In this document: positions 31,529-64,000 of the stretch, piece by piece
Numbering within the stretch: position 1 is the first letter of the stretch
Layout of the letters: every line of letters begins with the position of its first letter
The notes under the pieces: model-generated
The model's database searches: none
What the model was told of the DNA's origin: nothing
Seen by the model: only the letters and a program-made list of their open reading frames with translations
Program-made: the position numbers and the translations under genes
Source: Spirosoma profusum
Lineage (GTDB): Bacteria; Bacteroidota; Bacteroidia; Cytophagales; Spirosomataceae
Direction: 5' to 3'
NCBI RefSeq assembly: GCF_014699005.1
Contig: NZ_JACWZY010000025.1
Span: 1-64,000 of the forward strand
DNA length: 64,000 bases

Positions 31529-31602
31529 TGGGCCAGGCAGGGCTCGAACCTGCGACTTACTGATTATGAGTCAGGCACTCTAACCGACTGAGTTACAAGC
31601 CC
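31529..31602 (-). tRNA. tRNA with CAU anticodon (probably Ile2, read AUA; Met possible)
   Basis: 74 bases, cloverleaf folded by hand: acceptor GGGCTTG with CTGGCCC, D-stem ACTC/GAGT, anticodon loop CTCATAA with CAU at 31568-31566, T-arm GCAGG-TTCGAGC-CCTGC, discriminator A. No CCA is encoded. The context GACTCATAATC is typical of tRNA-Ile2, whose C34 is changed to lysidine by TilS, and less so of elongator Met. One U-U mismatch in the acceptor and one C-U at the top of the anticodon stem are visible. It marks the change from accessory to backbone DNA. Confidence 0.88.
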
Positions 31603-31716
31603 ATTGCTGATTGATTGCTCAGATTTAGCGGGACAAAATTACGAAATTTTTGGCAGTACAAACAGCATTTGCCTGATTTTCGAACAATACGTCTGCAATC
31701 CTGCGTTCGGCTCTGG

Positions 31717-31724
31717 TATCTTTG
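31717..31724 (+). promoter_or_regulatory. -7 element directly before the HD gene
   Basis: TATCTTTG fits TAnnTTTG and ends five bases before the ATG at 31730. If used, transcription would start at or next to the start codon and the mRNA would be leaderless. Confidence 0.45.
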
Positions 31725-31729
31725 TAAGG

Positions 31730-33010
31730 ATGACAGCATCAAACAAGAAGAAAATTCTGAACGACCCGGTATACGGGTTCATTACTATTCCGACCGAGCT
31801 CCTCTTTGATTTGGTCGAGCATCCATACTTTCAACGACTTCGACGTATCAAGCAACTAGGTTTGTCGGAATATGTATATCCTGGCGCGTTGCACACTCGT
31901 TTTCACCACGCGCTTGGCGCTATGCACCTGATGGGGCAGGCCATGAGTACGCTGCAAAGCAAAGGCCATATTATCACCTCCGACGAGTGCGAAGCAGCTC
32001 AGATTGCCATTCTGCTGCACGATATTGGACATGGGCCATTTTCGCACGTACTGGAATGCTGCTTGCTGGACAATGTGCTGCATGAACAGATTTCGCTCAT
32101 GCTTATGCACGACCTCAACCGGCAGTTTAGTGGAGCGTTGTCGCTGGCAATCAGCATGTTTGACGGAACGTATCACCGACCATTTTTTCATCAACTCGTT
32201 TCGAGTCAGTTGGATATGGACCGAATGGATTATCTCAACCGCGACGGCTATTATACGGGGGTGGCCGAAGGGGCAATCGGGGCCGAACGTATCATCAAAA
32301 TGCTTGATCTGGTTGATGACCAACTTGTTGTCGAAGCCAAGGGAATTCTGAGTGTTGAGAATTTTTTGAATGCCCGGCGACTGATGTACTGGCAGGTTTA
32401 CCTGCATAAAACGTCAATCTGCTGCGAGTCGATGTTGATTCAGATACTACGTCGGGCGCGGTTTCTGATTCGTCAATCCGAGCCAGTCCAGGCCGGGTCA
32501 GTTCAGACAGAGTCGGTTTATGCACCTAATACGTTCCGGCTTTTTCTGCTCGAAAGCGTTTCGCTCGAGCAGTTTCAGACGAATCGAACGTATCTGGATG
32601 CGTTTACCAAACTCGATGATTTCGATGTCTGGTCGTGTATCAAGCAGTGGGCGCTGCACCCCGATCTGATTCTATCGACGCTGTGTCAGATGCTGCTCGA
32701 TCGGAAATTATTTAAAATCATGCTCTCGACAGAGCCATTTGCCGACGAGTTGCTAAAGGAGTTGGAAGAACAACTACGTAGTAATGGGCTGAACGATGAA
32801 ATGCTGTCTTATTTTCTGATTGAAGGGCAGGCCACCAATGCTGCCTATCTGCCATCGGGGGATCGGATTGCTATTAAACTCAAAAGTGGCAAGGTTATCG
32901 ACGTAGCAGATGCGTCGGATCTGTCGAACATTCACGTACTGACCAACATCGTTCGTCGCTACTACGTTTGTTGGGCAAAAGACCTGACGCTGGGCAGCAA
33001 CGTAGCGTAG
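31730..33010 (+). CDS. HD-domain phosphohydrolase
   Basis: The ATG at 31730 is chosen: MTASNKKKILNDPVYGFITIP is the normal opening of this family, while the frame from 31604 runs through the tRNA-side gap. 426 residues. The HD motif residues are His in RFHHALGAMHLM and the HD pair in ILLHDIGHGPFSH, with a later Asp in QLDMDRMDYLNRDGYY. The relatives are deoxynucleotide triphosphohydrolase-like enzymes (SAMHD1/dGTPase fold) that are soluble and conserved in Bacteroidota next to lpxD. The substrate is not known from sequence. It shows dense ACGTA words (about 14 in 1.5 kb including flanks). Confidence 0.9.
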   Translation: MTASNKKKILNDPVYGFITIPTELLFDLVEHPYFQRLRRIKQLGLSEYVYPGALHTRFHHALGAMHLMGQAMSTLQSKGHIITSDECEAAQIAILLHDIGHGPFSHVLECCLLDNVLHEQISLMLMHDLNRQFSGALSLAISMFDGTYHRPFFHQLVSSQLDMDRMDYLNRDGYYTGVAEGAIGAERIIKMLDLVDDQLVVEAKGILSVENFLNARRLMYWQVYLHKTSICCESMLIQILRRARFLIRQSEPVQAGSVQTESVYAPNTFRLFLLESVSLEQFQTNRTYLDAFTKLDDFDVWSCIKQWALHPDLILSTLCQMLLDRKLFKIMLSTEPFADELLKELEEQLRSNGLNDEMLSYFLIEGQATNAAYLPSGDRIAIKLKSGKVIDVADASDLSNIHVLTNIVRRYYVCWAKDLTLGSNVA

Positions 33011-33131
33011 TTACCTACTTTTTCTTCAACGAATTCAGGGGGATAGTATACGAAAAGTGCAATTTGTTAGTTACCTTAGCGGCCTGATCGCTCATGGAAA
33101 GTGAGCGTTTTGCGACGGTCGTCATACGTAT

Positions 33132-34160: not shown

Positions 34161-34206
34161 TTATCAGTTTGCTATCTATCACCTATCGTAAACTGACAAC
34201 TGATAA
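34161..34206. repeat. Inverted repeat between lpxD and lpxC-fabZ
   Basis: TTATCAGTT (34161-34169) pairs with AACTGATAA (34198-34206). It ends four bases before the lpxC start and could influence translation or mRNA processing. Confidence 0.5.
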
Positions 34207-34209
34207 AGA

Positions 34210-35604: not shown

Positions 35605-35707
35605 TGAGTGATGAGTGATGACCGATAAGTGATAAGCGATGAGTGTAGCAATTAATCAAGCAATACTCATCACGTACCACTTATCGGTCATCACTCATCA
35701 CTCATCA
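35602..35707. repeat. Long inverted repeat between lpxC-fabZ and lpxA
   Basis: A perfect 30-base arm at 35602-35631 and its complement at 35678-35707. The arms are built from direct units of GATGAGT/GATAAGT. The TGA stop of lpxC-fabZ is inside the left arm. The transcript would form a long hairpin before lpxA. Confidence 0.85.
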
Positions 35708-35723
35708 TTCATCACTTAAAAAC

Positions 35724-36518: not shown

Positions 36519-36527
36519 TTGAATGAG

Positions 36528-37195: not shown

Positions 37196-37214
37196 ACGGA
37201 TTTGCACGTAGCAA

Positions 37215-38861: not shown

Positions 38862-38889
38862 TATCAGTCCTTTACTGCGTTAAAGCTAA

Positions 38890-49003: not shown

Positions 49004-49039
49004 GCGCGCAATACGTTAGTGCTTACTTCTACTGACCGT

Positions 49040-49990: not shown

Positions 49991-50003
49991 GAACTCGGAG
50001 TGT

Positions 50004-51236
50004 TTATTTCGTTAAGGTCGCTACGTTACCTGTGTCTTTCTGGTCAGTAAGCCAGGCCAGATTAAACCGTTTCAGCACAACTCTGTACCGCCAGGATTGC
50101 TTTTCGGCTTCGTTCGTTTCGTATAGGCAGTAAATCATACCATCGGGACCAACAGCTAAATCGGAGTAGCCCGCTTTGCCGGGGTCAATCACTTTTTTCA
50201 CCGGCCAGCTCTGACCATCGTCGTAACTCAGTTTGACGGTAAGATTTTGCCGTTTGCGGTTGCCGCGATTATTCATTGGTTCCGGGTCGTTTTCACTGTC
50301 GGGATTGACGAACGCAATCCGACTCTTTCCCCCTTTATCTGTACTGCTCACCCGAATCAGACTCGCCATGCAGACAGGATCAAATAATTCGTCGTCGAAT
50401 GCGGGTTTGGTCCAGCCAGTCGCGCCATCGGCGCTATAAGCAACCATTCGGCGGTGCGGCTCTGATTCGGTACGTATGTTGAGCATTACGCGGCCATCTG
50501 TGGTTTCAATCGCTACGTGTTCACTGGGGTTTTTGATTTCGGCGGTTGTATTGGTGATGATGTCGCCCCGTTTCCAGGTTTTGCCAAGATCATCGCTGTA
50601 AACCGTAGCGATACAGGATGGGCGGTGATCGCCACCTGGAATCTTCGGATTTGGTTCGCAAAGCCAAACGGGAACGACCAATCGGCCCGCGTGCGCACCT
50701 TTTTGCAATTGAATGGCATGACCGGGGCCAGGAGCCAGCACTTTCCAATTGTACTCAGGACGGAACTGCTCAAAAGCATTGGTAATGTCACTTGGTGCCG
50801 ACCAGGTTTTGCCATCGTCGGTCGATCGGACGTAGAAACAGTTGCTGTAATTACGCTGATAAAGCACATGGATGGTCTTCCCGTCGCGGTCAACAATGGG
50901 CGTGCAGTTGGACGTAGGGCGTTTGTTTTCGCGGGCGGCAATCACTACGTTATCTTCCCAGGTTTTGCCGCCGTCAGTGCTACGTCGCATCACAATGTCG
51001 ATGTCGGCCCAGTCGCCCGTGTTATTGACGCGCGCTTCGCAGAAAGCCAGTAATGTTCCTTTCGCAGTCATGACCAACGCCGGAATCCGCGTAGTTGCAT
51101 ACGTAGTACCGGGGTCAAAAACGGTGGCGGTTATTTCGAAAACAGGCTCTTGACTGGGTCCAGCCGTATTTTTAGCGGTACGACAACCGCTTAAGAGAAG
51201 TGTGCCGATGGTAAGAAAAGAAAGGAAATACTTCAT
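50004..51236 (-). CDS. Exo-alpha-sialidase, lipoprotein (first)
   Basis: 410 residues. Lipoprotein signal MKYFLSFLTIGTLLLSGC (Cys 18). The six-bladed sialidase fold is shown by the Arg-Ile-Pro motif (ATTRIPALVM) and at least four Asp boxes: STDGGKTWED, STDDGKTWSA, SDDLGKTWKR and SYDDGQSWPV. Further catalytic Arg and Tyr candidates are in MLNIRTESEP and GMIYCLYE. It should release terminal sialic acid from glycans at the cell surface. It lies downstream of another sialidase with a 200-base gap that contains a large palindrome. Confidence 0.92.
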   Translation of the reverse strand: MKYFLSFLTIGTLLLSGCRTAKNTAGPSQEPVFEITATVFDPGTTYATTRIPALVMTAKGTLLAFCEARVNNTGDWADIDIVMRRSTDGGKTWEDNVVIAARENKRPTSNCTPIVDRDGKTIHVLYQRNYSNCFYVRSTDDGKTWSAPSDITNAFEQFRPEYNWKVLAPGPGHAIQLQKGAHAGRLVVPVWLCEPNPKIPGGDHRPSCIATVYSDDLGKTWKRGDIITNTTAEIKNPSEHVAIETTDGRVMLNIRTESEPHRRMVAYSADGATGWTKPAFDDELFDPVCMASLIRVSSTDKGGKSRIAFVNPDSENDPEPMNNRGNRKRQNLTVKLSYDDGQSWPVKKVIDPGKAGYSDLAVGPDGMIYCLYETNEAEKQSWRYRVVLKRFNLAWLTDQKDTGNVATLTK

Positions 51237-51258
51237 ACGGTTTTGCGGTTTAGGTAAT

Positions 51259-51400
51259 TTGTCATGCTGAGTGTTTTGTCATGCTGAGGTACGAATCGGA
51301 CCGCCGAAGCGGCATCTTAACGTATCATTACTCTCAAGTTAGGAAGCTTTAAGATGCCGCTTCGGCGGTCCGATTCGTACCTCAGCATGACAAAAGCACT
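51259..51400. repeat. Large palindromic repeat between the two sialidase genes
   Basis: Perfect 47-base arms (51274-51320 and 51349-51395) around a 28-base spacer, with the match extending about five more bases outward with one mismatch. A partial extra copy TTGTCATGCTGAG sits at 51259-51271. The arm contains GTCATGCTGAGG as at 43779. It would form a very stable hairpin in the operon transcript and may lower expression of the downstream genes. Confidence 0.88.
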
Positions 51401-51435
51401 CATTATTTACTTGGTCTGACAAGAATAAATAGTCT

Positions 51436-53109
51436 CTACTTAATCAATTCATCCAATTTGATTTTCTGAAAAACCAGATCGGCCTGACTGCTTTCGTAGA
51501 CAATTCCAACCGTTTTTTCATTTACTGATGTGATGCACGAGTAGCCGCGTCCTTTCAATTCATCGAGTAAGATCCAGTGCTGTTGCGGCCAGGTTTTACC
51601 ATTATCGAAGCTTACTTTCAGGGTGATATGGTCGCGGTCGGTTTTGCTGTTTGGATTGACAAATAACAACAAACTACGGTTTTTGCCGCCTACTGTATAA
51701 TCGTGTCGGTGAATGCTTCCCATACAAGTCGGTTCAGGCAATGCGCTGGACGAGCTTGGGTGTTCCCGCCAGATTTTGCCCAAATCATTCGTTACGGCAA
51801 TTACACGACCGTTGCTGGCTGACAGATTTCCCCGGTTTTTGTTAGCACGCATGTTCAGCATGACGGAACCATCAGAAAGCTGAACGGCCATATTTTCGGT
51901 TGTGCTTTCTGAGCTGGCTTTGGGGCTGGTAGCCCAGGTTTTGCCGCCGTCTTTGCTGTACGTAATGTTCGAGAACGGTCGTCCGTCGGGTTCGCGGCCC
52001 TGTGTTGGGAAGACCAACGTACCGTCAGCTAACGTAATGCCTGCACCGGGCGCGGGTGCCCAGAGCCACCAGTCTTCTTTTTTGCACATTTGGGTCAGGT
52101 TGACGGGTTCGCTCCAGGTCTTGCCATCGTCGGTGCTTTTCGTGAGTAAAAATTGAGACGTTTGTTTGACATCGAAACCCGGCTGTGAACCTTTGTTCCG
52201 CCACTGATGATTCCAGCTAGTGCTGGCTTCATTCAAGCCCTCAATCCATTTCCCCTGATCATCAAGCACACCATGCATCCACAGGCCCGCTACGTAGATA
52301 GTCTTCGAGTTTCTATCGACCAGAATACAGGGGTCTGAAACGCCGTTGAATTTCTGCGGCAGATTCCCCCACGTACCTTTATCGAGCGCAATACGCATTG
52401 GCTCCCACGTAGTACCACCGTCCGTGCTCCGACTGACGCCGATATCAATATCGCCCTGCAAATCGCGTGCACTCCCTCGACGCGCATCGTAAATGGCCAG
52501 CAACGTACCATTGTTGGTTGTGGCTAACCCCGGAATGCGATACGTATGCACATTCTCGTCGTTGTGCTGACGTAGCGCCACACCGATACGTTGCTTCACT
52601 ACGTTCGGTGATTGTTGCGGCTTGATACGTTCCGATGCTACGTTCACGGCTTCACAGGTTGCGTCAACGTAGCCCATCAGATCAGCCGTCTTTTTCAGTT
52701 CGTAGGAAAGCCAGAAATAGTTGACACCCGGCTTCAGCGTTTGTTTTCCGTTGATAGAAAATTGCCTGTTTATGGTAGCAGTTTCCCCGAAAAGGACGGC
52801 GGTTTTTTTAGTGAGTGCCGTATTTAAAACTGAGTCGGTTCCGCAATAATAAAGTCTGGCTTTGGCAATGTCGGCAATGCGTGTCGTTCCCTGGCTATCG
52901 AAAGTGAACGTAGTGGTTTCGTTTTCACTACGTTGCTCGGGTACTGTAACCGTAAGCCGGACAATTGGATTTTCCGTTTTGCCGGTTAATACAGGCGTTA
53001 CAAACTGTTTCTCGCTGACTGTTAGACCTGTTTCAGCCGGAAAACGTCCCGCTGAGAGCAGAATGCCTAAAAACAGAGTGGTTAACAAAACAGGGCTGTT
53101 TTTATTCAT
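51436..53109 (-). CDS. Exo-alpha-sialidase with N-terminal accessory domain (second)
   Basis: 557 residues. Signal-like start (LLTTLFLGILLSAG). Residues ~30-175 form a beta-sandwich accessory domain (KQFVTPVLTGKTENPIV, TIADIAKARLYYCGT). The sialidase domain follows: HTYRIPGLATTNNGTLLAIYD holds the RIP Arg, and Asp boxes are STDGGTTWEP, STDDGKTWSE, SKDGGKTWAT and SFDNGKTWPQ. GYSCITSVNEKTVGIVYE has the conserved end with the Tyr-Glu pair. Like BT-type Bacteroides sialidases it should act outside the cell or in the periplasm. Having two sialidases suggests different linkages or compartments. Confidence 0.93.
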   Translation of the reverse strand: MNKNSPVLLTTLFLGILLSAGRFPAETGLTVSEKQFVTPVLTGKTENPIVRLTVTVPEQRSENETTTFTFDSQGTTRIADIAKARLYYCGTDSVLNTALTKKTAVLFGETATINRQFSINGKQTLKPGVNYFWLSYELKKTADLMGYVDATCEAVNVASERIKPQQSPNVVKQRIGVALRQHNDENVHTYRIPGLATTNNGTLLAIYDARRGSARDLQGDIDIGVSRSTDGGTTWEPMRIALDKGTWGNLPQKFNGVSDPCILVDRNSKTIYVAGLWMHGVLDDQGKWIEGLNEASTSWNHQWRNKGSQPGFDVKQTSQFLLTKSTDDGKTWSEPVNLTQMCKKEDWWLWAPAPGAGITLADGTLVFPTQGREPDGRPFSNITYSKDGGKTWATSPKASSESTTENMAVQLSDGSVMLNMRANKNRGNLSASNGRVIAVTNDLGKIWREHPSSSSALPEPTCMGSIHRHDYTVGGKNRSLLLFVNPNSKTDRDHITLKVSFDNGKTWPQQHWILLDELKGRGYSCITSVNEKTVGIVYESSQADLVFQKIKLDELIK

Positions 53110-53113
53110 ATTT

Positions 53114-53228
53114 TTTGTAGAGACAGGGCATGCCCTGTCTCATGGGTGTCAGCAATTGTTGTATTTACCAAAACCATCCGGTCATGAGACAGGGCATGCC
53201 CCCGTAGCGACGGACCGGTCTCTACAAA
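53114..53228. repeat. Nested palindromic repeat between sialidase and SusD genes
   Basis: The left arm at 53114-53144 contains the 18-base palindrome GACAGGGCATGCCCTGTC. The right arm (53183-53200 plus 53218-53228) is its complement interrupted by a 17-base insert. It is a second repeat family, different from the GTCATnCTGA one. It is placed inside the operon, just after the SusD stop. Confidence 0.8.
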
Positions 53229-54671
53229 TCAATACCCTTCCGTCTGTTTGATCTTGCTATTCAGTGCCATTACCCGTGTCGCGATGGGCCAATACAAGGG
53301 GGTGGTTTTGCCTTTCAGGTTGGGCACTACGTCGTACACATTGATGGTGCCGCCTTTGTGAAAACGTACCAGATCCCACCAGCGCTTGTTTTCGTGAAAT
53401 AACTCTCGACCGCGCTCGTCTAAGATTTCCTTTTCCAGCACGAGTTTATCTGTAGCCGTAAAATCAGCAACACCGGCCCGTTTGCGGACTTTGTTTAATT
53501 CCACCAGCGCATCCGCCGACCGGCCAAGGGCTGTCAGCGCTTCGGCTTTTAGTAGAAGTATGTCGGCTAGCCGATAGACAATTACGTCATCGTCGGCAAT
53601 GCGGTCTTCGGCGTAAACTGTACCGCGAAACTTATTCGGCCAGGCAACGAGCTGTTTGGTTCCCTGCAATTCCCAGATGTAGCTGACATCCTTGCGTGTA
53701 TCGTTGGGGAATTTGTTGATCAGCGCAAGAAGCGCCGGACTAACGGCATAAGCTGCCTGCGCATTACCGGGTTCTTTCACCAGCGGCAAATCGGCTGCGT
53801 TGGTAGCTGTACCAGAATAATTGATAAGCGGCAACGCGTTTCGGGAGTACATATCCCCACCCGTTTCGTTTCGGTTGAAATACAGCGAGAAGATAATTTC
53901 CGCGTTTTTCTTGTTGGTCGAAACGAAAATATTCCGGAACGACGGCAGCAGACTTACGCCTGATTTTTCGACTTCGGCAATGGCTGTTAACGCGTCGTTG
54001 AAATCCGCAGCTCCGCCGTTGAGTACTTTGGCGGTCCACATTTTGGCATCGGCTTTAGTGGCATACGCGGCTGGTTTGGAGAACCGGTTTTTATCAACGT
54101 AACCCGCTTCCGGGAAGGCCGCAATCGCAGCATCGAGATCGGTAAATACCTGTTTGAATACGTCGGCAACAGGTTTACGTTCCAGCAGTGGTACGTTCTC
54201 ATCAACAATGGCATCGAGCGTGAGTGGTACGTCACCCCAGATTTTGGCCATGTAGAAATACATACTGGCGCGGAGGCAAAGGGCTTCGGCGCGTGTCCGG
54301 TTTTTGACCGTCTGGTTTGCGAAATTGAAACCGTCCATTTGCTTCAGCAGTAGGTTGACATGCCCAATTACTGAATAATAAGGCGTCCAGTCTTTGGAAT
54401 TACCCGCGTTGATGACCTGCGACCAATAGGCCGAGAACCGGGGTAAACTTCCCTGAACGTAGCTGTCGCTGCGGTCGTCGCCGAAGGACAGATCGTTCAT
54501 CTGGGTTCGGTAGAGTTGGTAAATACCGTTGAGATAAGCTGAGAAATCGTCTTCGTTTTGCCAGTAAACCTGGTTCGTGATCTGCGACGCGGGTTTGACC
54601 TCCAGAATGCTGTTGCAGGAAAAGCAATGCAGGGCGGCAATGCAGCTAAACGTAATGAGTATCTTTTTCAT
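53229..54671 (-). CDS. SusD/RagB-family glycan-binding lipoprotein
   Basis: The ATG at 54671 starts a lipoprotein signal (MKKILITFSCIAALHCFSC, Cys 19 before NSILEVKP); the longer frame from 54713 does not. 480 residues. SusD marks are QITNQVYWQNEDDFSAYLNG near the start, RAEALCLRASMYFYMAKIWG (TPR-like helix), and the conserved C-terminus ILDERGRELFHENKRWWDLVRF. It binds glycans on the cell surface and hands them to SusC. It starts 19 bases after the SusC stop. The ligand is inferred from the neighbouring sialidases. Confidence 0.95.
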   Translation of the reverse strand: MKKILITFSCIAALHCFSCNSILEVKPASQITNQVYWQNEDDFSAYLNGIYQLYRTQMNDLSFGDDRSDSYVQGSLPRFSAYWSQVINAGNSKDWTPYYSVIGHVNLLLKQMDGFNFANQTVKNRTRAEALCLRASMYFYMAKIWGDVPLTLDAIVDENVPLLERKPVADVFKQVFTDLDAAIAAFPEAGYVDKNRFSKPAAYATKADAKMWTAKVLNGGAADFNDALTAIAEVEKSGVSLLPSFRNIFVSTNKKNAEIIFSLYFNRNETGGDMYSRNALPLINYSGTATNAADLPLVKEPGNAQAAYAVSPALLALINKFPNDTRKDVSYIWELQGTKQLVAWPNKFRGTVYAEDRIADDDVIVYRLADILLLKAEALTALGRSADALVELNKVRKRAGVADFTATDKLVLEKEILDERGRELFHENKRWWDLVRFHKGGTINVYDVVPNLKGKTTPLYWPIATRVMALNSKIKQTEGY

Positions 54672-54690
54672 GGATGATGTCGGAAAAGGG

Positions 54691-57600
54691 TTAGAAACGG
54701 ATGGTTGCGCCAATGGTGAACTGGCGTGGCCGTGGGTAGCCGCCTTCGTCGAAACCTTTGTAAACCTCTGGGTTCAAGCCCGTATAGCCCGTCAGATAGC
54801 CCAGATTATACACGCCAGCGTTCAACTGAACTGATCCTGTTTTGATGCGGTTGGTAATGGCTTTCGGCACCTGATACGAAATCGAAACCTCGCGGAAAGC
54901 CAGCCAGTCGCCCTTGGAAATGTAGATGGAATTGTCGGAACTGTAGCCTTCAAGACCCACTTGCGTGTAACCCACTGCCGACGCACCGCGCAGGTGATTC
55001 CGGTAGCCAAAATCGGCGTCCCCGAAGCTGAAACGAGGGTATTTTTTGCCAACGTCGCCGGGATTTTGCCAAACGTCATCGTTGAGTGCCTGACTAGGAG
55101 CGCCTTCGTTCGATGCACGCGCCTGTCCCATCGAGCGAGCCAGCGCCCCGTTGCTGACGATATGGCCCAGCGCATAGTCTACGGTAAATCGCAACGTAAC
55201 GCCTTTCCAGTTGAGGGTATTTTGCATACCGCCAATTTTGTCGGGAACACGCCAGCCCTGAAACACCAGGTCTTTTCCGTCGATTTGGCCATCCTTGTTA
55301 AGGTCGGCCCAGTTTACGTCGCCCCCGTGTTTAACTTTACCCAGCGCTACGCTCGTAACAACCAGGTCTTTGGGAGCGCCTTTCGCTTCTTCATCAGTCG
55401 CATAAATCCCGTTCGACTGCCAGGCCCAAACGCCACCCGGACGCTCTCCTTCGGCATAGCCACCTACCTCAATATCACGGCCCAATGCCGGGTCATAAAC
55501 AGCACCGCCATTGATACGGTTTTTATCCCGTCCGTTTGGTGGCAGCTTCACAACGGTTTGACGGTTGAAGGCAAACGAAAAATTGGTGTTCCAGGTGAAG
55601 GCGCCCGCTTTCAGCACCGTAGCACCTAACTCTACTTCGATACCCCGGTTGCGAAGCTGACCAACATTGTACGGAATACTCGTAAAGCCAGATTCGGTCG
55701 GCAACTGCAAATTATCCAAACGGTTCTTTGTCAGTTTATTATAGACATCAATCGTCAACGTAATTCGGTTGAACAAACTCAGGTCGATACCAGCGTCGAC
55801 GGTTTCGGTGGTTTCCCAGAGCAGATTCGGATTTGCCAACGTAGTACGAAGAATACCGCCGTTCCCGCCGTATGGACGTGCTCCGTAACCGCCATACGTA
55901 TCAGTATAACTTAGGTTCGATAAACCAGTCTGACCATAACTACTTCGAATTTTGAACTGATTTATAAACGGAACCTGCCAGAACGATTCCCGATGGATAT
56001 TCCAGCCAGCCGAAACCGACGGAAACAGCGCGTATTGGTTATTCGGAGCGAAACTGGAGAATCCGTCGTAACGTAACGATGCGCCGAATAAATACTTACC
56101 ATCATAATCGTAGTTCACCTGCCCGAAGAAACTGGCCGTTTTGCTGACATTCAGGATAGAATTAACGGTGAAATTCGGTTGCTGAACGCCATTCACGGAA
56201 GTCGTCTGCGGATCGCCCGAGATGGTTGTGTTGTAATCGTTGGTAGAACGTTGGCCGCCGACCACTAAACTAAATGAAGAAATTCGGGTATAGTTAAAAC
56301 CAGCTAATGCTGTCAGATTATGTTTCGTGCCAAACGTGTGATCGTATTGCAGAATCTGGTCGGTCATAATCTGCCGGGTCTGATTCGACTGCTCTGCTTT
56401 TTGCCGCTGGACCTGCTGGCCGGGGAAAAATCGCTCGAAGAAAATGTACTGAAAATTATTGATGTAGATCGACGCAGAAGGCCGGAAATGCAGTCCTTTC
56501 GCAATTTCCAGATCGCCCGCCAGCCGGAACGTCGTTTGTTCGTTATTGGCATTCAAATCCTGATAATACAGTTCGTGCAAACGGTTCCGAACCGTTACGC
56601 TCTCGCCCAGATACGGTTTGCCGTCTTCGGCGTAAATCCGGTTAAGGGGCGTAATACGTACCCCACGTACCAACTGATTCAGCGTGTTATCGACGTATTT
56701 GTTGTCATTCCAGAGATACGATAAATTGGCGTCGAGTTTGAATCGATCACTTACTTTGAAACCCGCATTCGCCAGCGCACTAAAGCGTTTGTAGCCCGTT
56801 CCCAGAAACACCCCACCCTGATCGACGTAACCGAGTGATACGTTGTAATTGCTACGTTCGTTTCCACCATCGACCGCTACGTTGTAATTGTTGGTATGCG
56901 CCGTTTGCCAGACAACATCCTGATAATGATTGTCTTTGAAAATAATTGTCTTGCCTAGATTGAGCGGATCATCAATGGTTTCCCAGCCGTTCGCCAGCAG
57001 ATTGTCGACGTAAGGCTGGCCTTCTACCGAAACCAGGTTGGCGAGGTAAGCTGTCGTATAATAAGCCGCGCCGTATTGACCTTTCTGCGTATACGTTGGC
57101 GTAGTCGCTGAGTTGCCGGCCGAGTAAAGTTTGGTGTTGATATCAAATACGTCCAGTCCACGCGCCCAGGTTTTTCGAGCCAGCGTCAGGTAATCGCGAC
57201 CACCCAAATATTGATAATTACGAGCCTGTGTTTCAACACCATGCTGATACCGGAATGTTACGTTGCCACGCCCAGCGTTGTTCTTGCCAGATTTGGTTTT
57301 GATGATAATAACGCCATTCGCGCCCCGCGCTCCGTAAGCCGCCGTAGAAGCCGCATCTTTCAGGACTTGTAAGGATTCGATATCGTCGGAATTAACGTCG
57401 TTGAAATTCCGGAAAACGCCATCGATAATAACCAACGGATTACTGGATTGAATAGCGCCAATCAGATCACCGCCACCCGTACCGGTACTGGTTCCGTATG
57501 GATTCAACGTAGTACCACCACGTATCACAATGTTGGCCGCTGCCCCCGGCTGACCAGACAACACCGGTACCGAAACACCGGCCATTTTACCCTGCAATGC

Positions 57601-58041
57601 CTGTACCGGGCTAACTGACGGAATGTTCTGCAACTCCTTATTATCGAGTTTCGAAACCGATGCACTCGTTTTCGCTCTTGATTGTTCGGCGTAACCCACA
57701 ACGATAACTTCGTTGAGCGCCTTAACATCTTCCTGAAGCGCTACGTTAAGCTGACTACGTCCGTTAAGCGGAATTTCCTGCGTTACGTAGCCAATAAAGG
57801 AGATGACCAACGTAGCATTGGGATTGGGTACGGTAAGCGTATATGCCCCGTTTATGTCGGTGACGGTACCCGTTGTAGTGCCTTTCACCACCACACTTAC
57901 GCCGGGCAGACCTTCGTTTCCTCCGCCCGTAACCTGCCCTTGAACCTGCAATCGGGTTTGTGCCAAACTATTAAAGGCGCTAAACCACATAGTTAGCCCA
58001 ATTATCCAGCTACAAATATGAATTATAGAACACTTTACCAT
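54691..58041 (-). CDS. SusC/RagA-family TonB-dependent transporter
   Basis: 1116 residues. Signal peptide to about residue 28 (FSAFNSLAQ). Then a CarboxypepD-regulatory domain (VQGQVTGGGNEGLPGVSVVV, TVTDINGAYTLTV), the SusC box-like VIVVGYAEQSRAKTSASVSKL, a plug domain (ALQGKMAGVSV, STAAYGARGANGVIIIKTK) and a long beta barrel ending VYKGFDEGGYPRPRQFTIGA with a terminal Phe. It imports oligosaccharides across the outer membrane with TonB energy, in pair with SusD. It is the first gene of the operon and has a GTAGGACAT site 51-63 bases upstream of the start, like those near the GntR gene. Confidence 0.95.
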   Translation of the reverse strand: MVKCSIIHICSWIIGLTMWFSAFNSLAQTRLQVQGQVTGGGNEGLPGVSVVVKGTTTGTVTDINGAYTLTVPNPNATLVISFIGYVTQEIPLNGRSQLNVALQEDVKALNEVIVVGYAEQSRAKTSASVSKLDNKELQNIPSVSPVQALQGKMAGVSVPVLSGQPGAAANIVIRGGTTLNPYGTSTGTGGGDLIGAIQSSNPLVIIDGVFRNFNDVNSDDIESLQVLKDAASTAAYGARGANGVIIIKTKSGKNNAGRGNVTFRYQHGVETQARNYQYLGGRDYLTLARKTWARGLDVFDINTKLYSAGNSATTPTYTQKGQYGAAYYTTAYLANLVSVEGQPYVDNLLANGWETIDDPLNLGKTIIFKDNHYQDVVWQTAHTNNYNVAVDGGNERSNYNVSLGYVDQGGVFLGTGYKRFSALANAGFKVSDRFKLDANLSYLWNDNKYVDNTLNQLVRGVRITPLNRIYAEDGKPYLGESVTVRNRLHELYYQDLNANNEQTTFRLAGDLEIAKGLHFRPSASIYINNFQYIFFERFFPGQQVQRQKAEQSNQTRQIMTDQILQYDHTFGTKHNLTALAGFNYTRISSFSLVVGGQRSTNDYNTTISGDPQTTSVNGVQQPNFTVNSILNVSKTASFFGQVNYDYDGKYLFGASLRYDGFSSFAPNNQYALFPSVSAGWNIHRESFWQVPFINQFKIRSSYGQTGLSNLSYTDTYGGYGARPYGGNGGILRTTLANPNLLWETTETVDAGIDLSLFNRITLTIDVYNKLTKNRLDNLQLPTESGFTSIPYNVGQLRNRGIEVELGATVLKAGAFTWNTNFSFAFNRQTVVKLPPNGRDKNRINGGAVYDPALGRDIEVGGYAEGERPGGVWAWQSNGIYATDEEAKGAPKDLVVTSVALGKVKHGGDVNWADLNKDGQIDGKDLVFQGWRVPDKIGGMQNTLNWKGVTLRFTVDYALGHIVSNGALARSMGQARASNEGAPSQALNDDVWQNPGDVGKKYPRFSFGDADFGYRNHLRGASAVGYTQVGLEGYSSDNSIYISKGDWLAFREVSISYQVPKAITNRIKTGSVQLNAGVYNLGYLTGYTGLNPEVYKGFDEGGYPRPRQFTIGATIRF

Positions 58042-58091
58042 AACAAATGGGGTTAAATGGGAATAGAGATGTTTATCTTGTTGTTATGTAA

Positions 58092-58104
58092 ATAAGTAGG
58101 ACAT
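58092..58104. promoter_or_regulatory. Candidate GntR operator upstream of SusC
   Basis: ATAAGTAGGACAT. It differs in one base from ATAAGTAGTACAT at 61191-61203 and shares the core with the palindrome at 60348. It lies 51-63 bases before the SusC start. Confidence 0.5.
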
Positions 58105-58226
58105 AATTACACAATGTTCTAGCTATTTTTGAAAAAATCAAAGTCTTTCGCTTACTTTTTTGTATTACTTAGGGAAATAATAACATTTAAACGGCCAAGA
58201 TAATGTGGCTTCCAGCATTGAACTTT

Positions 58227-59183
58227 TTACTGGGTAAATGCCGGAATCAATAGTCGAGCGGCAGTACGTACCGGCTGCGCATCGGTTTCCGGAATCGAAC
58301 GATACGGCCAGCGCATCCGGCAACCGACTTTCGACCAACCTCCTACTACCGACATAAACTTGTCACAAGCCGGATTTGGATAGCCTTTTTCAGTAATATA
58401 AGGAGCAATATACTCGCGCATCCACCGCTGAATTCCCTGTTCCCATTCTAGCGCCTGGTCTAAATCACTCAGCATCAGATTGTACCAATCCTGCGCCAGT
58501 TTCGGGTGCAGACATGCTACGTTCGAGTAAGCGCCGTGGGCACCTTCCTGAATACCCGTTGCCAGAAAATGGCCCGGCACGAACACTGATAGGCCCTGCA
58601 TGTATTTCCGCATCTGAACGTACCATGCTGAATCACCACCCGGTACTTTTACACCAACTAATTGAGGAATAGCGTCTTTCAATTGACTGAATTGAGTAGG
58701 CGTTAAGCGAACTTTGGCGTGCGGAGGATTATAAAGCACTAGCCGAACGTCAGTTGATACGTCTGCCATTCGACGCAGGAATGAAATGATTTCAGATTCA
58801 GTCGGCGGAAACCAGTCGGGCAAAATTACCTGCACGGCACCCGGCTCCCAACGTAGCGACCGTTTTAACCGCTCTAACGACAAAATCGGACTCATGTGAC
58901 TGACGCCAATTTGAAACGGCATTCCAGCAGCATGGCATTTCTGCGCTAATAATTCATGAATCTGATCAAATTCGACTTCGGTCTGGTTATAAAATTCGCC
59001 CGCCGTTCCGTTCGAGTAGATGCCATCGACGCCGAAGGCAATCAACGTATCGATTTCATTCGCTAACTCCTCAAAATCAATCGAATCATCTTCACAAATC
59101 GGGAGCATCAACGTAGCCCAGTTGCCCCGAATATCGGTTGCCTCAAGCGAGTGATACGTTGATGGTTTATTACGTGCGCTCAT
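58227..59183 (-). CDS. DHDPS-family aldolase (sugar-acid or sialate type)
   Basis: 318 residues, TIM barrel. SNGTAGEFYNQTEVEFD matches the GTxGE loop; the Tyr is in VLYNPPHAKVRLT; the Schiff-base Lys is in QLVGVKVPGGDSAW. It is a paralogue of the gene at 49040 but clearly different (LYNPP instead of YYYHIP). It starts 23 bases after the enolase-family gene stop, so the two form an operon. A dehydratase plus such an aldolase is the usual pair for breaking down sugar acids (2-keto-3-deoxy acids to pyruvate and an aldehyde). That role is inferred; true dihydrodipicolinate synthesis is less likely here. Confidence 0.82.
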   Translation of the reverse strand: MSARNKPSTYHSLEATDIRGNWATLMLPICEDDSIDFEELANEIDTLIAFGVDGIYSNGTAGEFYNQTEVEFDQIHELLAQKCHAAGMPFQIGVSHMSPILSLERLKRSLRWEPGAVQVILPDWFPPTESEIISFLRRMADVSTDVRLVLYNPPHAKVRLTPTQFSQLKDAIPQLVGVKVPGGDSAWYVQMRKYMQGLSVFVPGHFLATGIQEGAHGAYSNVACLHPKLAQDWYNLMLSDLDQALEWEQGIQRWMREYIAPYITEKGYPNPACDKFMSVVGGWSKVGCRMRWPYRSIPETDAQPVRTAARLLIPAFTQ

Positions 59184-59206
59184 GTGCTACGTTGTTTTGA
59201 CTTGAC

Positions 59207-60334
59207 TTAATACGTGCAGCCCCGGATTATCTCAACGGTGTGATTATCGAGCCAATCCCAGTCCAGTTCAACACCAAGACCTGGACCTGTTGGGCAATAC
59301 TGACAACCATCTTCCCGAATTTCCAGCGGATCGTTTTTCAATCCAAAACGGAACATAGGATGGTGACTTTCCAGAAAACGTGACAATCGTGTGGCACAAC
59401 CGACGTGCAGATTTGCTACGTCCAGCAAGGGGGCTCCTGCCGTGTGAATTTCCAGGCCATAACCCATCATTTCGCACATTCCCAGGGCTTTCATGATGCC
59501 CGTTACCCCACTTTTATGATGCACATCGCCCCGGATGAGGTCAATTGCCCCATTGGTCATGTAGTTTGATAGCTCAAATAATCCGACGGTTTCGGCAGCT
59601 AAAACTGGCGTTCGAATGGTGTCTGACAGTTTTTTCAACTGACCGATATGAGCGTCTGGAAATGGTTCCTCAAACCATTCATAACGGAGTTCATCCAACT
59701 CATAACCAATCACCAAAGCATCATCAAACGTCAGTACTGCCGATGAATCCAGCATCAGCGGAAAGTCGGGGCCAACTAATTCACGGGCTTTCCGTAATCG
59801 GGGAATATCCAGTGCTGAACCGCCTGAGAGTTGCAGTTTTATTCCCCGAAATCCCTGTTTCACTTTTTGGGTAACTTCCTGTTCAACCTCTTCGAGCGTC
59901 GTTATTGTTTGCGGTGGACAGGTGGCGTAGGTGGGTACCTTTTCGCGGTATTGGCCAAGCAATTTCGCAATCGATATATCTGCCACTTTACCTTTTATAT
60001 CCCATAACGCTACGTCCAGATTGCCCCAAATGGCTTCCCGGAAATTGTATAAATGCCGCTGTTTTTGCCGAAACGACTGCCAGATTGCTTCGTGATTGAG
60101 CGGATCTTTTCCCACCAGATCATGATAATATACATCCTGAACCGCATAAGCCGATGCGCGCCCCTGACCTAACGGACCATAATCCATCGTGTAGCCTTCT
60201 ACGCCCTCATCGGTATGCAACGTAGTGAGTGGAAAGTCCCAATACGATACGTGGCCGGACGGTATCGGGCGCGGATGAAACCACGCTTCAGCGCCTACGC
60301 GAATCAGGCGAGTTGTAATCTCAGTGATAAGCAT
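59207..60334 (-). CDS. Enolase-superfamily enzyme (mandelate racemase/sugar-acid dehydratase type)
   Basis: The ATG at 60334 (MLITEITTRLIRVG) is used; the alternative GTG at 60346 would abut the operator palindrome. 375 residues. Active-site residues seen: Lys in RGIKLQLSGGS, metal ligands Asp in PLMLDSSAVLTF, Glu in YEWFEEPFPD and Glu in VLAAETVGLFE, and a His in YGLEIHTAGAPLLD. This fits the mandelate racemase subgroup with a His acid/base, mostly acid-sugar dehydratases. Together with the aldolase gene downstream it forms a plausible two-step sugar-acid pathway. Substrate unknown. Confidence 0.85.
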   Translation of the reverse strand: MLITEITTRLIRVGAEAWFHPRPIPSGHVSYWDFPLTTLHTDEGVEGYTMDYGPLGQGRASAYAVQDVYYHDLVGKDPLNHEAIWQSFRQKQRHLYNFREAIWGNLDVALWDIKGKVADISIAKLLGQYREKVPTYATCPPQTITTLEEVEQEVTQKVKQGFRGIKLQLSGGSALDIPRLRKARELVGPDFPLMLDSSAVLTFDDALVIGYELDELRYEWFEEPFPDAHIGQLKKLSDTIRTPVLAAETVGLFELSNYMTNGAIDLIRGDVHHKSGVTGIMKALGMCEMMGYGLEIHTAGAPLLDVANLHVGCATRLSRFLESHHPMFRFGLKNDPLEIREDGCQYCPTGPGLGVELDWDWLDNHTVEIIRGCTY

Positions 60335-60347
60335 CTGAAATTGCACT

Positions 60348-60360
60348 TATGTAGTACATA
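60348..60360. promoter_or_regulatory. Candidate GntR operator upstream of the enolase-family gene
   Basis: TATGTAGTACATA is a perfect 13-base palindrome around a central G, 13 bases before the ATG at 60334. The core GTAGTACAT is shared with sites at 61191 and (one change) 58092. A dimeric GntR protein is expected to bind such a site. Confidence 0.55.
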
Positions 60361-60432
60361 TCGATGCGAATAAAAATCACACGAATGATATCTCCTAATT
60401 TATCTGCTATTTTTTTGTTGGATAATGAAATT

Positions 60433-61122
60433 TCAGGCTAAACGTAGCAGATGTGGCTCGAGATGTTTGAGCATGCCACTAGTAAACTCTTCAGGAGTTC
60501 CGTTCTTCAGAATATTGACCAAATCCCGGTGAGTAACTGAGCCAACAGTATGGAAGTCGTGGTCGGTTTCGTATTCTACTACATATTCGAAAACCGGCAT
60601 GAGCATGGCCTGAAACCGCTTAATAGTCTCATTGCCAGCCATTTCGTATAAAGCCGAGTGGAAAGCGATTTCACAGTCAACTTTTTCCTGAATCGTCAGC
60701 ACCTGAGATTCCTGCTTGACAATCGCTTCCAGTTTTTGGATACCCTCGTCGGTTTTTCGGACAAATAGCAAGGCGGCCTGACCAACTTCCAGTACCAGCC
60801 GAAATTCAAAAATCTGTTTACGCGTATCGGTACCTAAAATGTGGGGATGCATCATCCGTTCCAGCCCGCTCAGAATATCGGGTTGTGTCAGTATCATACC
60901 CCGACGTTTTTTAGTGTCAATCATACCCAGCATCCGCAGTCGGCTCAAAGCTTCTCGTACTACGTTTCGACTAACGCCCAGTGCTTCAGCCAGTTCCACT
61001 TCTTTCGGAATAGCGTCACCTGGCCTGAAGGCTTTGTGAGTAATGTATTCACGTAATCGCTCCTCCACCTGATCGGCCATAGTGGTCGAAATGATCGGTT
61101 CTATTTTAGGTGTCGCTTCCAT
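60433..61122 (-). CDS. GntR/FadR-family transcription regulator
   Basis: 229 residues. N-terminal winged HTH: QVEERLREYITHKAFRPGDA, then IPKEVELAEALGVSRNVVREAL, the classic GntR motif. The C-terminal FCD-type helical domain follows (LVLEVGQAALLFVRKTDEG, FHSALYEMAGNETIKRFQ, THRDLVNILKNGTPEEF) with the Asp/His metal-ligand pattern of FadR-type effectors. Such proteins respond to acids or sugars. It is divergent from the sulfatase and 86 bases upstream of the enolase-family gene. Near-identical candidate sites before three transcription starts suggest it controls the whole locus and itself. Confidence 0.9.
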   Translation of the reverse strand: MEATPKIEPIISTTMADQVEERLREYITHKAFRPGDAIPKEVELAEALGVSRNVVREALSRLRMLGMIDTKKRRGMILTQPDILSGLERMMHPHILGTDTRKQIFEFRLVLEVGQAALLFVRKTDEGIQKLEAIVKQESQVLTIQEKVDCEIAFHSALYEMAGNETIKRFQAMLMPVFEYVVEYETDHDFHTVGSVTHRDLVNILKNGTPEEFTSGMLKHLEPHLLRLA

Positions 61123-61190
61123 TATATATATTATTTCGATGAACGATATGTATACCCATTCATCGAAATGCTAAAGTAGTGAATTGGCTA

Positions 61191-61203
61191 ATAAGTAGTA
61201 CAT
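61191..61203. promoter_or_regulatory. Candidate GntR operator in the regulator-sulfatase gap
   Basis: ATAAGTAGTACAT, with the GTAGTACAT core. It lies between the divergent GntR (start 61122) and sulfatase (start 61260) genes, so one protein bound here could act on both. Confidence 0.55.
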
Positions 61204-61259
61204 TTATACAAATTTCAAATTAATAAAGAAGGCGTTACGATCGGCATTAACCTGTGCAA

Positions 61260-62756
61260 ATGAAAGCAATCGTTTGTTGGATATTACTGGGAATTGTCAG
61301 TACTGTCGGTTTAGGGCTGCAATACGTTCCATCAAAATCAGCTACGTCAGAGCAAAAACGTAATGAACCAAACGTACTATTCATTGTTGTCGACGATTTA
61401 CGCACTGATCTGGGTTGCTACGGGGATTCGCTCGCTCACACGCCGAATATTGACAAACTGGCTCGCACGGGCGTAGTATTTGATCGGGCTTACTGTCAGC
61501 AGGCTGTTTGTGCGCCGTCGCGAGCGTCCATGCTGACCGGATTACGCCCTGATTCGCTACGTGTTTGGGACCTCAATACACCCATTCGAACCCATTTGGC
61601 GAACGTAGTGACGCTGCCACAGTATTTTAAGCAACAAGGATACGTAACACAGTGTATCGGCAAAATCTTTCATGATCCCGCTGATCATCAGGACGCTCAG
61701 TCATGGTCGGTGCCCGAACAACTGCATATTACCGATGACGCTGGCGGCAAATACGTCCTCCCTGAAAATATACGTAACGGCGGTAAAGGTTTCTGGAAAG
61801 CAGCTCCTACCGAGCGCGCTGAGGTACCGGATTCGGCGTATGTGGATGGGCGAGTGGCGCTGGCAGCAGTACGTGCGCTTGAGAAATTACGGACGCAACC
61901 GTTTTTTCTGGCCGTTGGGTTTCGTCGTCCTCATTTGCCGTTTTCAGCGCCCGAACGCCACTGGAAATTTCATAAACCTGAGCAATTCGCTATTCGAAGC
62001 AATGAACAACTGCCGATGGGAGCGCCAGTTTACGCAGGTCATGAATCGTCGGAGCTTCGCGGATACACGGACGTACCGCCTAAAGATGATTTGTCGGATG
62101 CAATGAAACAGCAGCTTCGGCACGGCTATTACGCCAGCACCAGCTACGTCGATGCGCAGGTAGGGCTTGTTTTGCAGAAAATCAGGCAATTAGGATTAGC
62201 CAGCAATACGATTGTAGTTCTGGTTAGTGATCACGGCTTTCATCTGGGCGAACAGGGGCTCTGGACGAAAACATCGAATTACGAACTTGATGTGCGCGTA
62301 CCACTTATTGTTTCGGCACCCGCGCAGAAGGCCAGAGGTAAGCATACAAAAGCGTTGGTTGAATTGATCGATCTATTTCCGACGCTGACAGATTTGTGCC
62401 AGATCCCTACGCCAAAACAGATACAGGGTAAGTCGTTCAAAAAGCTGGTCGATAACCCAGGTCTAACGCATCGATCCAGTGCGATTAGCCAGTTTCCACG
62501 ACCCTGGACATATAAAAAGAATCCAGAATTGATCGGGTATTCCATCCGTAATCAGCGTTTTCGCTACACTGAATGGCGACGGTATCAGGATGGTAACGTA
62601 GCAGCAAGTGAGTTATACGACCTCGAACATGAACCGATTGAACGTACCAACCTAAGTGGTCAATCAGCTTATAGGAATATCTTGAAAGACATGTCTCAGG
62701 CGTTACATAACGAAATCCCGGCAAAACCGGCTCCTTTACAACGTGCTTCCCGTTAA
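61260..62756 (+). CDS. Sulfatase (iduronate-2-sulfatase-like), exported
   Basis: The ATG at 61260 (MKAIVCWILLGIVSTVGLG) starts a signal peptide; six bases earlier is only a GTG. 498 residues. Alkaline-phosphatase fold sulfatase: metal ligands DD in LFIVVDDLRTDLGCYGD, the modified Cys in VCAPSRASMLTGLRPDSLRVW (C-x-P-S-R, needs formylglycine formation), and DHGFHLGEQGLWTKTSNYE. GFRRPHLPFSAPERHW is typical of iduronate-2-sulfatases. It removes sulfate from sugars in the periplasm or outside. Beside the sialidases it suggests use of sulfated sialoglycans such as mucins. Confidence 0.92.
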   Translation: MKAIVCWILLGIVSTVGLGLQYVPSKSATSEQKRNEPNVLFIVVDDLRTDLGCYGDSLAHTPNIDKLARTGVVFDRAYCQQAVCAPSRASMLTGLRPDSLRVWDLNTPIRTHLANVVTLPQYFKQQGYVTQCIGKIFHDPADHQDAQSWSVPEQLHITDDAGGKYVLPENIRNGGKGFWKAAPTERAEVPDSAYVDGRVALAAVRALEKLRTQPFFLAVGFRRPHLPFSAPERHWKFHKPEQFAIRSNEQLPMGAPVYAGHESSELRGYTDVPPKDDLSDAMKQQLRHGYYASTSYVDAQVGLVLQKIRQLGLASNTIVVLVSDHGFHLGEQGLWTKTSNYELDVRVPLIVSAPAQKARGKHTKALVELIDLFPTLTDLCQIPTPKQIQGKSFKKLVDNPGLTHRSSAISQFPRPWTYKKNPELIGYSIRNQRFRYTEWRRYQDGNVAASELYDLEHEPIERTNLSGQSAYRNILKDMSQALHNEIPAKPAPLQRASR

Positions 62757-62996
62757 CGTACTACGTCTGAGAGTAAGGTTACGGGTAATGGATTTTAAAA
62801 TAAACCTACACTACGTATCGCTTCACTACGTAGCATTCTCCATTTATCAGATGCTTTTCTGGCAGAACATCAACACAGAAACGTATTAAACCGAAAATCC
62901 CGGACGGATAGGTATAAATTACCAGGTTCCGCGTTTTGTAACATATAACTCTTGTGTAGTTAATAAGCTGGATTGTTTACCTGAACGCTTAAACTC

Positions 62997-64000
62997 ATGC
63001 GCCCTTTTTTACCTAAAAAACGGTCTTTTCTCTCCCGACAGACCGTTCTTGTTTCGGCTACTGGTCTGGTAGTTGGTGGGCTTTTTGTCGGAGCTTACCA
63101 GAACCGAAACCTCAACAAAGCTTCGCAGTCGTACCTGACAAGCCTGTTCGCAAAACTAGGCGACGACGATAAACATGACCCCAAATACGCGGTTGGTAGC
63201 CTGAATATTGCACCTGGCCTCGAAGCGACTCTTTATGCCGCCGAGCCAATGCTAACCAATCCGACCAACATCGATGTAGACGCCCGTGGTCGTGTTTGGG
63301 TTTGCGAAGCCTATAATTATCGTCCAGCCGTCAACGGCAATCCGACAAAAAAAGAGGGTGATCGTATCGTCATTCTGGAAGATACCAACGGCGATGGCAA
63401 GGCCGACGAAACCAAAGTGTTTTATCAGGGCCCCGAAATCGAATCACCACTGGGGATTTGGGTGCAGGGTAACAAAGTAATCGTTTCCGACAGCCCGAAC
63501 GTCTGGGTATTTACCGATGAAAATGGTGACGATAAGGCTGACAAAAAGGAGTTGCTGTTTACAGGTATCGGCGGTGAGCAACACGACCACGGAATGCACA
63601 CGTTTGTGTTCGGCCCCGACGGAAAATGGTATTTCAACTTCGGAAATTCGGGCGAACAATTGCTCGATAAAAATGGCAACGCCATTACCGATATCGCCAG
63701 TGGAAAAACCATCAATAAGCAGAATTTCAAACAGGGCATGGTGTTTCGCTGCGACCCTGACGGGAAGAACGTAGAGCTACTGGCCCAGAATTTCCGTAAT
63801 AACTACGAAGTGGCGGTCGATTCCTACGGTACGCTCTGGCAATCGGATAATGACGACGATGGCAACAAGAGTGTACGGATTAACTACGTCATGGAATATG
63901 GTAACTACGGCTACACTGACGAGATGACGGGGGCAGGTTGGCAGGCCAACCGCGATAATATTGAAACCGAAATTCCTTTCCGCCACTGGCATCTGAACGA
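62997..64000 (+). CDS. PVC-type dehydrogenase / membrane-bound glucose-dehydrogenase-like protein (3' end outside window)
   Basis: The ATG at 62997 (MRPFLPKKRSFLSRQ) starts a frame open to the end of the window, 334 codons. An N-terminal signal or anchor (TVLVSATGLVVGGLFVGAY) is followed by a beta-propeller: LYAAEPMLTNPTNIDVDARG, RVWVCEAYNYRP, RIVILEDTNGDGKADE, VSDSPNVWVFTDENGDDKAD and DHGMHTFVFGPDGKWYFNFG. This matches proteins called membrane-bound dehydrogenase or PVC-type haem-binding CxxCH proteins, common in Bacteroidota and Planctomycetes near sulfatases. The C-terminal cytochrome part would lie beyond the window. Function in sugar or glycan oxidation is inferred. Confidence 0.82.
   Translation, partial: MRPFLPKKRSFLSRQTVLVSATGLVVGGLFVGAYQNRNLNKASQSYLTSLFAKLGDDDKHDPKYAVGSLNIAPGLEATLYAAEPMLTNPTNIDVDARGRVWVCEAYNYRPAVNGNPTKKEGDRIVILEDTNGDGKADETKVFYQGPEIESPLGIWVQGNKVIVSDSPNVWVFTDENGDDKADKKELLFTGIGGEQHDHGMHTFVFGPDGKWYFNFGNSGEQLLDKNGNAITDIASGKTINKQNFKQGMVFRCDPDGKNVELLAQNFRNNYEVAVDSYGTLWQSDNDDDGNKSVRINYVMEYGNYGYTDEMTGAGWQANRDNIETEIPFRHWHLN

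Follow-up and report, generated by a model that had tools for sequence, protein, structure and literature searches.

The window analysed here is the 64,000-nucleotide stretch of Spirosoma profusum at positions 1 to 64,000 of contig NZ_JACWZY010000025.1 (assembly GCF_014699005.1), from a genome of 8,731,341 bases (8.73 Mb) in 81 contigs, called G000 below. A tRNA-Met gene divides it into a phage-like element on the left and resident chromosome on the right, and the two sides differ in their content of one short DNA word, the asymmetric octamer ACGTANYR. That word is the subject of this analysis. The features that bear on it are these:

1–31525, no strand: phage-like element, word-poor (13 ACGTANYR), recognised by terminase, tape measure, integrase and tail-spike-like proteins
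37–44, plus strand: the sole AACGTAGC of the phage-like part
4113–7733, plus strand: tape-measure gene of the phage-like element; the 2-kb bins covering it hold 0 and 2 ACGTA/TACGT
31526–31603, minus strand: tRNA-Met gene at the density boundary
31604–64000, no strand: resident chromosome (184 ACGTANYR), assigned from word counts and gene families; by gene families it holds an lpxD-lpxC/fabZ-lpxA (lipid A) region, ABC transporters and a likely sialic-acid/sulfatase locus
31604–33010, plus strand: HD-domain gene, the first resident frame, with 12 ACGTANYR from 31685 to 33000
62756–62832, no strand: dense ACGTA/TACGT cluster reaching from the sulfatase stop codon into the following gap, with six strand-wise matches at four places

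Summed over the two strands, ACGTA occurs 264 times in 32001–64000 and 45 times in 1–31500, where base composition predicts 64 and 62. The 2-kb bins hold 0–5 copies as far as 32 kb and 8–22 beyond, and the strictest Markov model, built on the 4-mers of the same sequence, predicts 180 for the right-hand part. The density steps up abruptly at the tRNA, and the first ACGTANYR lies 82 bases past it, at 31685. A first-pass annotation of this DNA had described the pentamer as dense in the backbone half, rare in the phage-like part and a marker of host against mobile DNA; the contrast is stronger than was claimed for the pentamer, and the octamer marks the two sides of the tRNA in the same way. Our count in 31.6–33.1 kb equals the 14 given there. 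The estimate of about 2 sites in the tape-measure gene agrees with the bins 4001–6000 and 6001–8000, which cover most of it, and the four sites placed near 62755–62830 are the four places of the dense cluster, where there are six strand-wise matches because the palindrome TACGTA scores twice. For 42.9–46.3 kb the enrichment stood but the figure did not, with 33 sites counted against about 26 estimated. The annotation also named a frequent longer form, AACGTAGC. This has 28 copies in the window, just one of them within 1–31.5 kb, and genome-wide it outnumbers its reversed sequence by 4,503 to 259; the full unit is longer than the pentamer and is ACGTANYR.

The phage-like element (1–31603 of the window) has its right end at the tRNA-Met gene and an integrase-like gene at 19634–21079. 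The contig begins inside the element and therefore lacks its left end. On the resident side, the LpxC/FabZ protein has its best relatives in Spirosoma, and 46433–62756 is a likely locus for the use of sialic acid and sulfated glycans. It encodes two sialidase-like proteins, a SusC/SusD pair, two proteins of the dihydrodipicolinate synthase family, a mandelate-racemase-type enzyme, a sulfatase, and a mutarotase-like domain fused to a sodium/solute symporter.

The word was derived from 432 kb, comprising 20 sampled G000 stretches and the resident half of the window. ACGTA is followed by a loosely set base, then a pyrimidine, then a purine, and C is disfavoured directly 5' of the word. Over these 432 kb, ACGTAGCA stands 26-fold above a dinucleotide model. 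Genome-wide there are 39,401 copies of ACGTANYR (19,710 forward and 19,691 reverse) against 3,143 (1,549 and 1,594) for the reversed control. This amounts to one word in about 222 bases (roughly 4,500 per Mb; 4.5 per kb), and in the sampled core to about 5 per kb. Genome-wide counts do not lie near a Markov expectation, nor are the phage-like and core segments equally dense. Four low-density stretches among the first 20 (L002, L009, L013 and L017) were kept in the derivation of the word and in the strand test against GC skew, and were excluded from the core counts and the shuffle, mismatch, fill, out-of-frame, and gap and frame tests. L013 has a phage integrase gene, while L002, L009 and L017 were not shown to be mobile. 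In L013 (contig C13 of G000, 1–20000), which also carries a Fic gene, ACGTA falls under chance, at 23 against 43; the low count and the integrase are in line with recent arrival.

The specificity of the word is close to all-or-none. In the sampled core the ratio of observed to expected is 10.5 for ACGTANYR and 0.56–1.5 for its 15 single core mismatches. AACGTAGCA stands at 38-fold, against 0–5.4-fold for its own 15 core mismatches. Among the one-off words ahead of NYR, ATGTA and ACGCA are mildly low and GCGTA and TCGTA mildly high. A mutation bias with a single source, such as a Vsr-like C/T conversion, was rejected on the ground that the one-off neighbours are not depleted from any one source.

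Part of the genus Spirosoma and both Fibrisoma are rich in ACGTANYR. Among 36 Spirosoma the totals are 39,401 in G000, 22,928 in S. terrae, 22,187 in S. validum and 18,007 in S. endophyticum, followed by G023 with 10,207 and G028 with 6,389 (a genome 71% complete); the remaining 30 have 2,365–5,994. Two Fibrisoma genomes have about 11,900 each. In a draw of 390 genomes from the order, which did not include S. terrae, only six exceed 9,000, namely four Spirosoma and both Fibrisoma. On a tree of one gene, several forks of which are weak, word-rich species lie dispersed among word-poor Spirosoma: G000 is placed beside S. validum, S. terrae near the word-poor S. panaciterrae, S. endophyticum elsewhere, and Fibrisoma outside the genus. 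Over five genes, the sites of G000 are shared by S. validum at 16/34, by S. endophyticum at 13/34 and by S. terrae at 7/22. Word-poor Spirosoma share 1–7 of 21–35, and other 5-mers there are shared at 0.25–0.32.

Related words fill the chromosomes of sister genera. Across 222 genomes of the family, ARGTACY reaches 37,850 copies in Rhabdobacter roseus (G213), against 4,634 for the reversed control, and is also frequent in G231 (15,700), G241, a Telluribacter (15,093), G240 (14,326), Persicitalea (G209; 10,783) and G107 (7,400). In samples of these genomes the words could be sharpened. Rhabdobacter has ARGTACCY, enriched 25.6-fold in genes and 36-fold outside; G231 has the palindrome RGGTACCY (22-fold and 26-fold), Persicitalea AASTACC (10-fold and 4.8-fold) and Fibrivirga ACGTACCY (20-fold and 16.5-fold, the latter from 10 sites). 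The sister words align on a shared A-N-S-T-A core, the exception being RGGTACCY with R at the first place. Within G231, 220 kb of the 6.5-Mb contig contain RGGTACCY at 234 places, and 100 kb drawn from three smaller contigs at 12.

In G108, G112, G113, G117, G130, G143 and G147, all of one genus (g8, probably Dyadobacter), ARGTACY is avoided and falls short of the reversed control by a factor of about 5 to 12, with 309 against 3,678 in G143 as an example; others of that genus show no avoidance. GMGGCG (CGCCKC) was surveyed over L001–L052 and L056, which are Spirosoma, Fibrisoma, Rudanella and Larkinella loci, and is nearly absent. Where 389 copies are expected, 14 Spirosoma loci have 1; the G000 sample has 5 (399 expected), two Fibrisoma have 2 (80 expected), and three Rudanella-group loci and five Larkinella have none (92 and 139 expected). 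It is near expectation in Fibrella/Fibrivirga (101 against 109) and in 25 Dyadobacter loci (444 against 474). The shortage is perhaps the mark of an old restriction system. Finally, L039 (Rudanella) and L056 (Spirosoma sordidisoli) gave the over-represented 7-mers TGCTCAA (20 against 2.4) and CTACCGA/GTCGGTA (18–19 against about 2.2), which may be further dialects or codon effects.

One explanation of such a word would be ordinary codon, dipeptide or nucleotide bias, since most sites are in genes and two phases in Fibrisoma are unenriched. As the first-pass annotation had proposed, codon use does not account for it. All six frame and strand phases are used, with 1,584 words in coding and 228 in non-coding sequence of the sampled core and nearly equal numbers in sense and antisense (776 and 808). 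The sampled core genes hold 1,544 words against 228 ± 9 in synonymous shuffles, or 6.8-fold, where word-poor Spirosoma have 84 against 57 and prophage 12 against 8. Outside frames of at least 80 codons the excess in G000 is 8.9-fold (145 against 16), compared with 5 against 5 expected in word-poor relatives, and in Rhabdobacter, as given above, the excess outside genes is 36-fold. Core mismatches abolish the enrichment, and the reversed word stays low. Codon and dipeptide bias is thus rejected for G000 and Rhabdobacter by the shuffles and the out-of-frame enrichment, and we consider ordinary codon, dipeptide or nucleotide bias next to negligible as an explanation.

About half of the places where the protein sequence of G000 would allow the word do hold it (1,544/3,097). 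The corresponding fractions are 266/780 in S. terrae, 537/3,119 in Fibrisoma, 84/1,116 in word-poor Spirosoma and 12/217 in prophage, and the reversed word in G000 fills 97/1,050. Rhabdobacter fills 453/880 places with its own word, against 16/357 in word-poor Spirosoma. There is also a shift in amino-acid neighbourhoods. The number of words expected from synonymous shuffles is 1.40 times that expected when codon order is shuffled in G000, against 0.96 in word-poor Spirosoma, and in Rhabdobacter the ratio is 2.52, measured on AAGTACCY.

Maintenance of the word was tested in two Fibrisoma species, aligned over 148 kb at 86% identity. Codons lying wholly inside words were synonymously unchanged in 153/181 cases for GTA (676/1,199 outside words), 45/46 for TAC (1,655/2,078 outside) and 158/191 for ACG (1,468/2,008 outside). 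Summed over GTA, TAC, ACG and CGT, 378/457 were unchanged in words against 299 expected. Each pair was counted in both directions, which gives z 7.9; because of this double counting the true z is, by our estimate, nearer 5.6. Amino-acid conservation within the words is no different from expectation (457/492 against 453). Since the codons resist synonymous change while the amino acids do not differ, it is as DNA that most words are preserved. A plain sharing test, in which 170/284 ACGTA before NYR were shared and 11 words of the same composition ranged over 0.23–0.58, does not separate decay from maintenance; the codon-controlled test favours maintenance.

The synonymous constraint within words would also be expected if direct selection favoured words as binding sites, throughout resident DNA, of a protein that structures the chromosome or marks it as self, and about one word per 200 bases on two strands, in and out of genes and rare in newcomers, would suit such a protein. 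The spacing does not suit it. The gaps between words in the sampled core are not even (coefficient of variation 1.26), although 96% of positions have a word within 500 bases, and short gaps are at or above chance save for those of 5–9 bases (32 against 46). Other Spirosoma live with near-background word counts, and it is hard to picture selection acting so strongly on single places that half of the compatible ones are filled. We regard a structuring protein as improbable.

The orientation of the words bears on a further explanation, that they are a Chi-like signal for a recombination nuclease. Chi of RecBCD/AddAB is likewise a short over-represented word of the core genome with variants between genera, and Chi sites are oriented with replication. 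ACGTANYR and its sister words show no clear strand preference in six sets when GC skew is taken as a proxy for the origin, with 43–53% on the GC-skew-positive strand and p 0.07–0.92. The counts on the skew-positive and the other strand are 997/938 in G000, 331/380 in G023, 334/302 in Fibrisoma, 317/325 in Rhabdobacter, 185/188 in Persicitalea and 48/64 in Fibrivirga. The rank correlations with skew point in different directions, positive in G000 (+0.42, p 0.057) and Fibrisoma (+0.47, p 0.038) and negative in G023 (-0.40, p 0.083), and plus and minus counts over the G000 stretches vary slightly beyond chance (chi-square 34.6, 21 degrees of freedom, p 0.03). In G231 the numbers are 250 against 258 for ARGTACY and, in L295 and L312–L321 (G231:C2), 35 against 58 for AAGTACC, which is not the main word there; because that genome's own word is a palindrome, this test says little, and the 35:58 split is possibly chance. 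With a word density far above that of Chi as well, a Chi-like role is very unlikely.

Uptake of self DNA is the next alternative, in which a competence system would prefer DNA bearing the word, recombination would spread it and dialects would isolate species, as with DNA uptake sequences (DUS) and uptake signal sequences. Classic uptake signals act through type IV pili; DUS are 10–12 bases long, use these pili, lie on both strands and are rare in mobile DNA. ACGTANYR is alike in being over-represented on two strands of resident DNA and rare in recent arrivals such as the phage-like element; RGGTACCY is rare in the smaller contigs of G231, and the dialects have a common core. The DUS of Neisseriaceae likewise form related dialects with a conserved core across one bacterial family, according to the portion of PMC3630211 used here. 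Riemerella, a member of the same phylum, is reported to be competent although no pilus homologs were found in it (PMC8459023). Against this, the type IV pilus ATPase family PF00437 was found in 0/22 genomes at E 1e-5, with 13/14 controls positive, and pilus-based uptake of the word is unlikely. The word has 8 degenerate bases, and at about 5 per kb of core with half of the compatible places filled it is past the density where an extra copy is expected to help; the densest DUS case in those excerpts of PMC3630211 is 5,918 in 2.4 Mb. On the one-gene tree ACGTANYR appears scattered among Spirosoma species, whereas DUS dialects track phylogeny (PMC3630211, same excerpts). An uptake signal of any kind thus seems to us doubtful, at about the level of the structuring protein.

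Among the closest known parallels are the highly iterated palindromes (HIP) of cyanobacteria. HIP1 and the alternate HIPs are also short words whose genome-wide counts far exceed expectation, and some relatives carry other words in their place. In the sections of PMC4390886 used here, they are palindromes of about 500–2,500 per Mb (one higher), generally accompanied by a matching methylase, and the model given for them expects about one word per 1,000. ACGTANYR differs in being asymmetric, and in reaching about 4,500 per Mb, and no shared methylase was found in the four families searched; among the sister words only RGGTACCY is palindromic. The comparison of our word with HIP1 or an uptake signal in the first-pass annotation was right as to a highly iterated genome word, and did not hold as a plain case of either model. 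ACGTANYR is akin to HIP words and to uptake sequences, yet it fails one tested defining feature of each. Searches of the open-access literature turned up no description of a word like this one, either for Spirosoma or for Bacteroidota at large.

One asymmetric word fills this chromosome via something that acts on double-stranded DNA regardless of strand, gene and codon phase. With half of the compatible places filled, 96% of positions within 500 bases of a word and uneven gaps, the process appears to act site by site, and signals needing about one word per kilobase, such as those for uptake or for guiding repair, would have stopped at a lower density. The sites of type IIG and other type II restriction-modification systems follow rules of fixed bases with R, Y, S and N, and are usually avoided or neutral. 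ACGTANYR shares the form of the rule and differs in its enrichment. Since the sharp rule and the one palindromic dialect look like the work of restriction-modification enzymes, we favour, though at somewhat less than even confidence, a repair ratchet like that of HIP1, directed by a putative word-specific enzyme and autonomous at each site. The enzyme would recognise the exact word and mark the strand bearing it, and repair of a mismatch between the word and a one-off word would then favour the word. Mutations creating a word would be retained more often and those breaking one removed more often, so that each near-word would be turned into, or kept as, a word on its own account with no need for another nearby. 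New phage and plasmid DNA would be too recent to have filled up. A little more tentative is a fuller version, a word drive, in which an enzyme would write its own recognition word into the whole chromosome and defend it there, one site after another. Half of the synonymous opportunities would be taken up, proteins would shift in the strongest cases, and the specificity of the enzyme would drift between genera into dialects, with neither the palindrome and orphan methylase of HIP nor uptake by a pilus.

Several observations weigh against this ratchet. The methylase search covered PF01555, PF07669, PF02384 and PF00145 in 22 genomes (10 word-rich and 12 word-poor) and gave 124 matches, of which 73, including nearly all from word-rich Spirosoma, were compared over their catalytic regions only. 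Within that sample no group at 40% identity is common to all word-rich Spirosoma, other families having not been searched, and no word-specific enzyme was found in the four. PF07669 matches occur in 10/10 word-rich and 11/12 word-poor genomes. In one group, matches from G033, G023, both Fibrisoma, Persicitalea and Fibrivirga fall together with those from the word-poor G001, G004, G005, G015 and G029; other partial groups are G006 with G035 and G000 with G006. The one type IIG enzyme of G000, encoded on contig C46 at about 13.1–16.5 kb, is closest, at 44%, to one of the word-poor G010. In Fibrisoma, CGT codons are hardly better kept in words (22/38) than outside (336/634), the two phases needing the arginine codon CGT are at baseline (20/763 and 38/711), and the excess outside frames is merely 2.2-fold (32 against 14.5 expected), so that Fibrisoma shows a weaker signal, tied in part to codons. 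The shuffle ratio is just 1.04 in a pooled sample of S. terrae, S. validum and S. endophyticum; the protein-level shift is therefore not general. From 100 kb of G241 no sharp word was obtained, though both it and G240 are rich in ARGTACY. In the main alignments to a 4.2-kb query, the relatives of G000 have 70–75% identity and are thus too distant for counts of gain and loss, and the data do not distinguish selection from biased repair.

For the biology of these bacteria, the finding means that the choice among synonymous codons can be governed by a process at the level of DNA, which in two of the genomes nudges the proteins as well. Analyses of codon usage and selection in the word-rich species are affected by it. 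The density of the word may serve to date the arrival of DNA, as the phage-like element of the window is nearly empty of it. Strains with high counts, low counts and different words within one genus and family make the function of iterated words directly testable.

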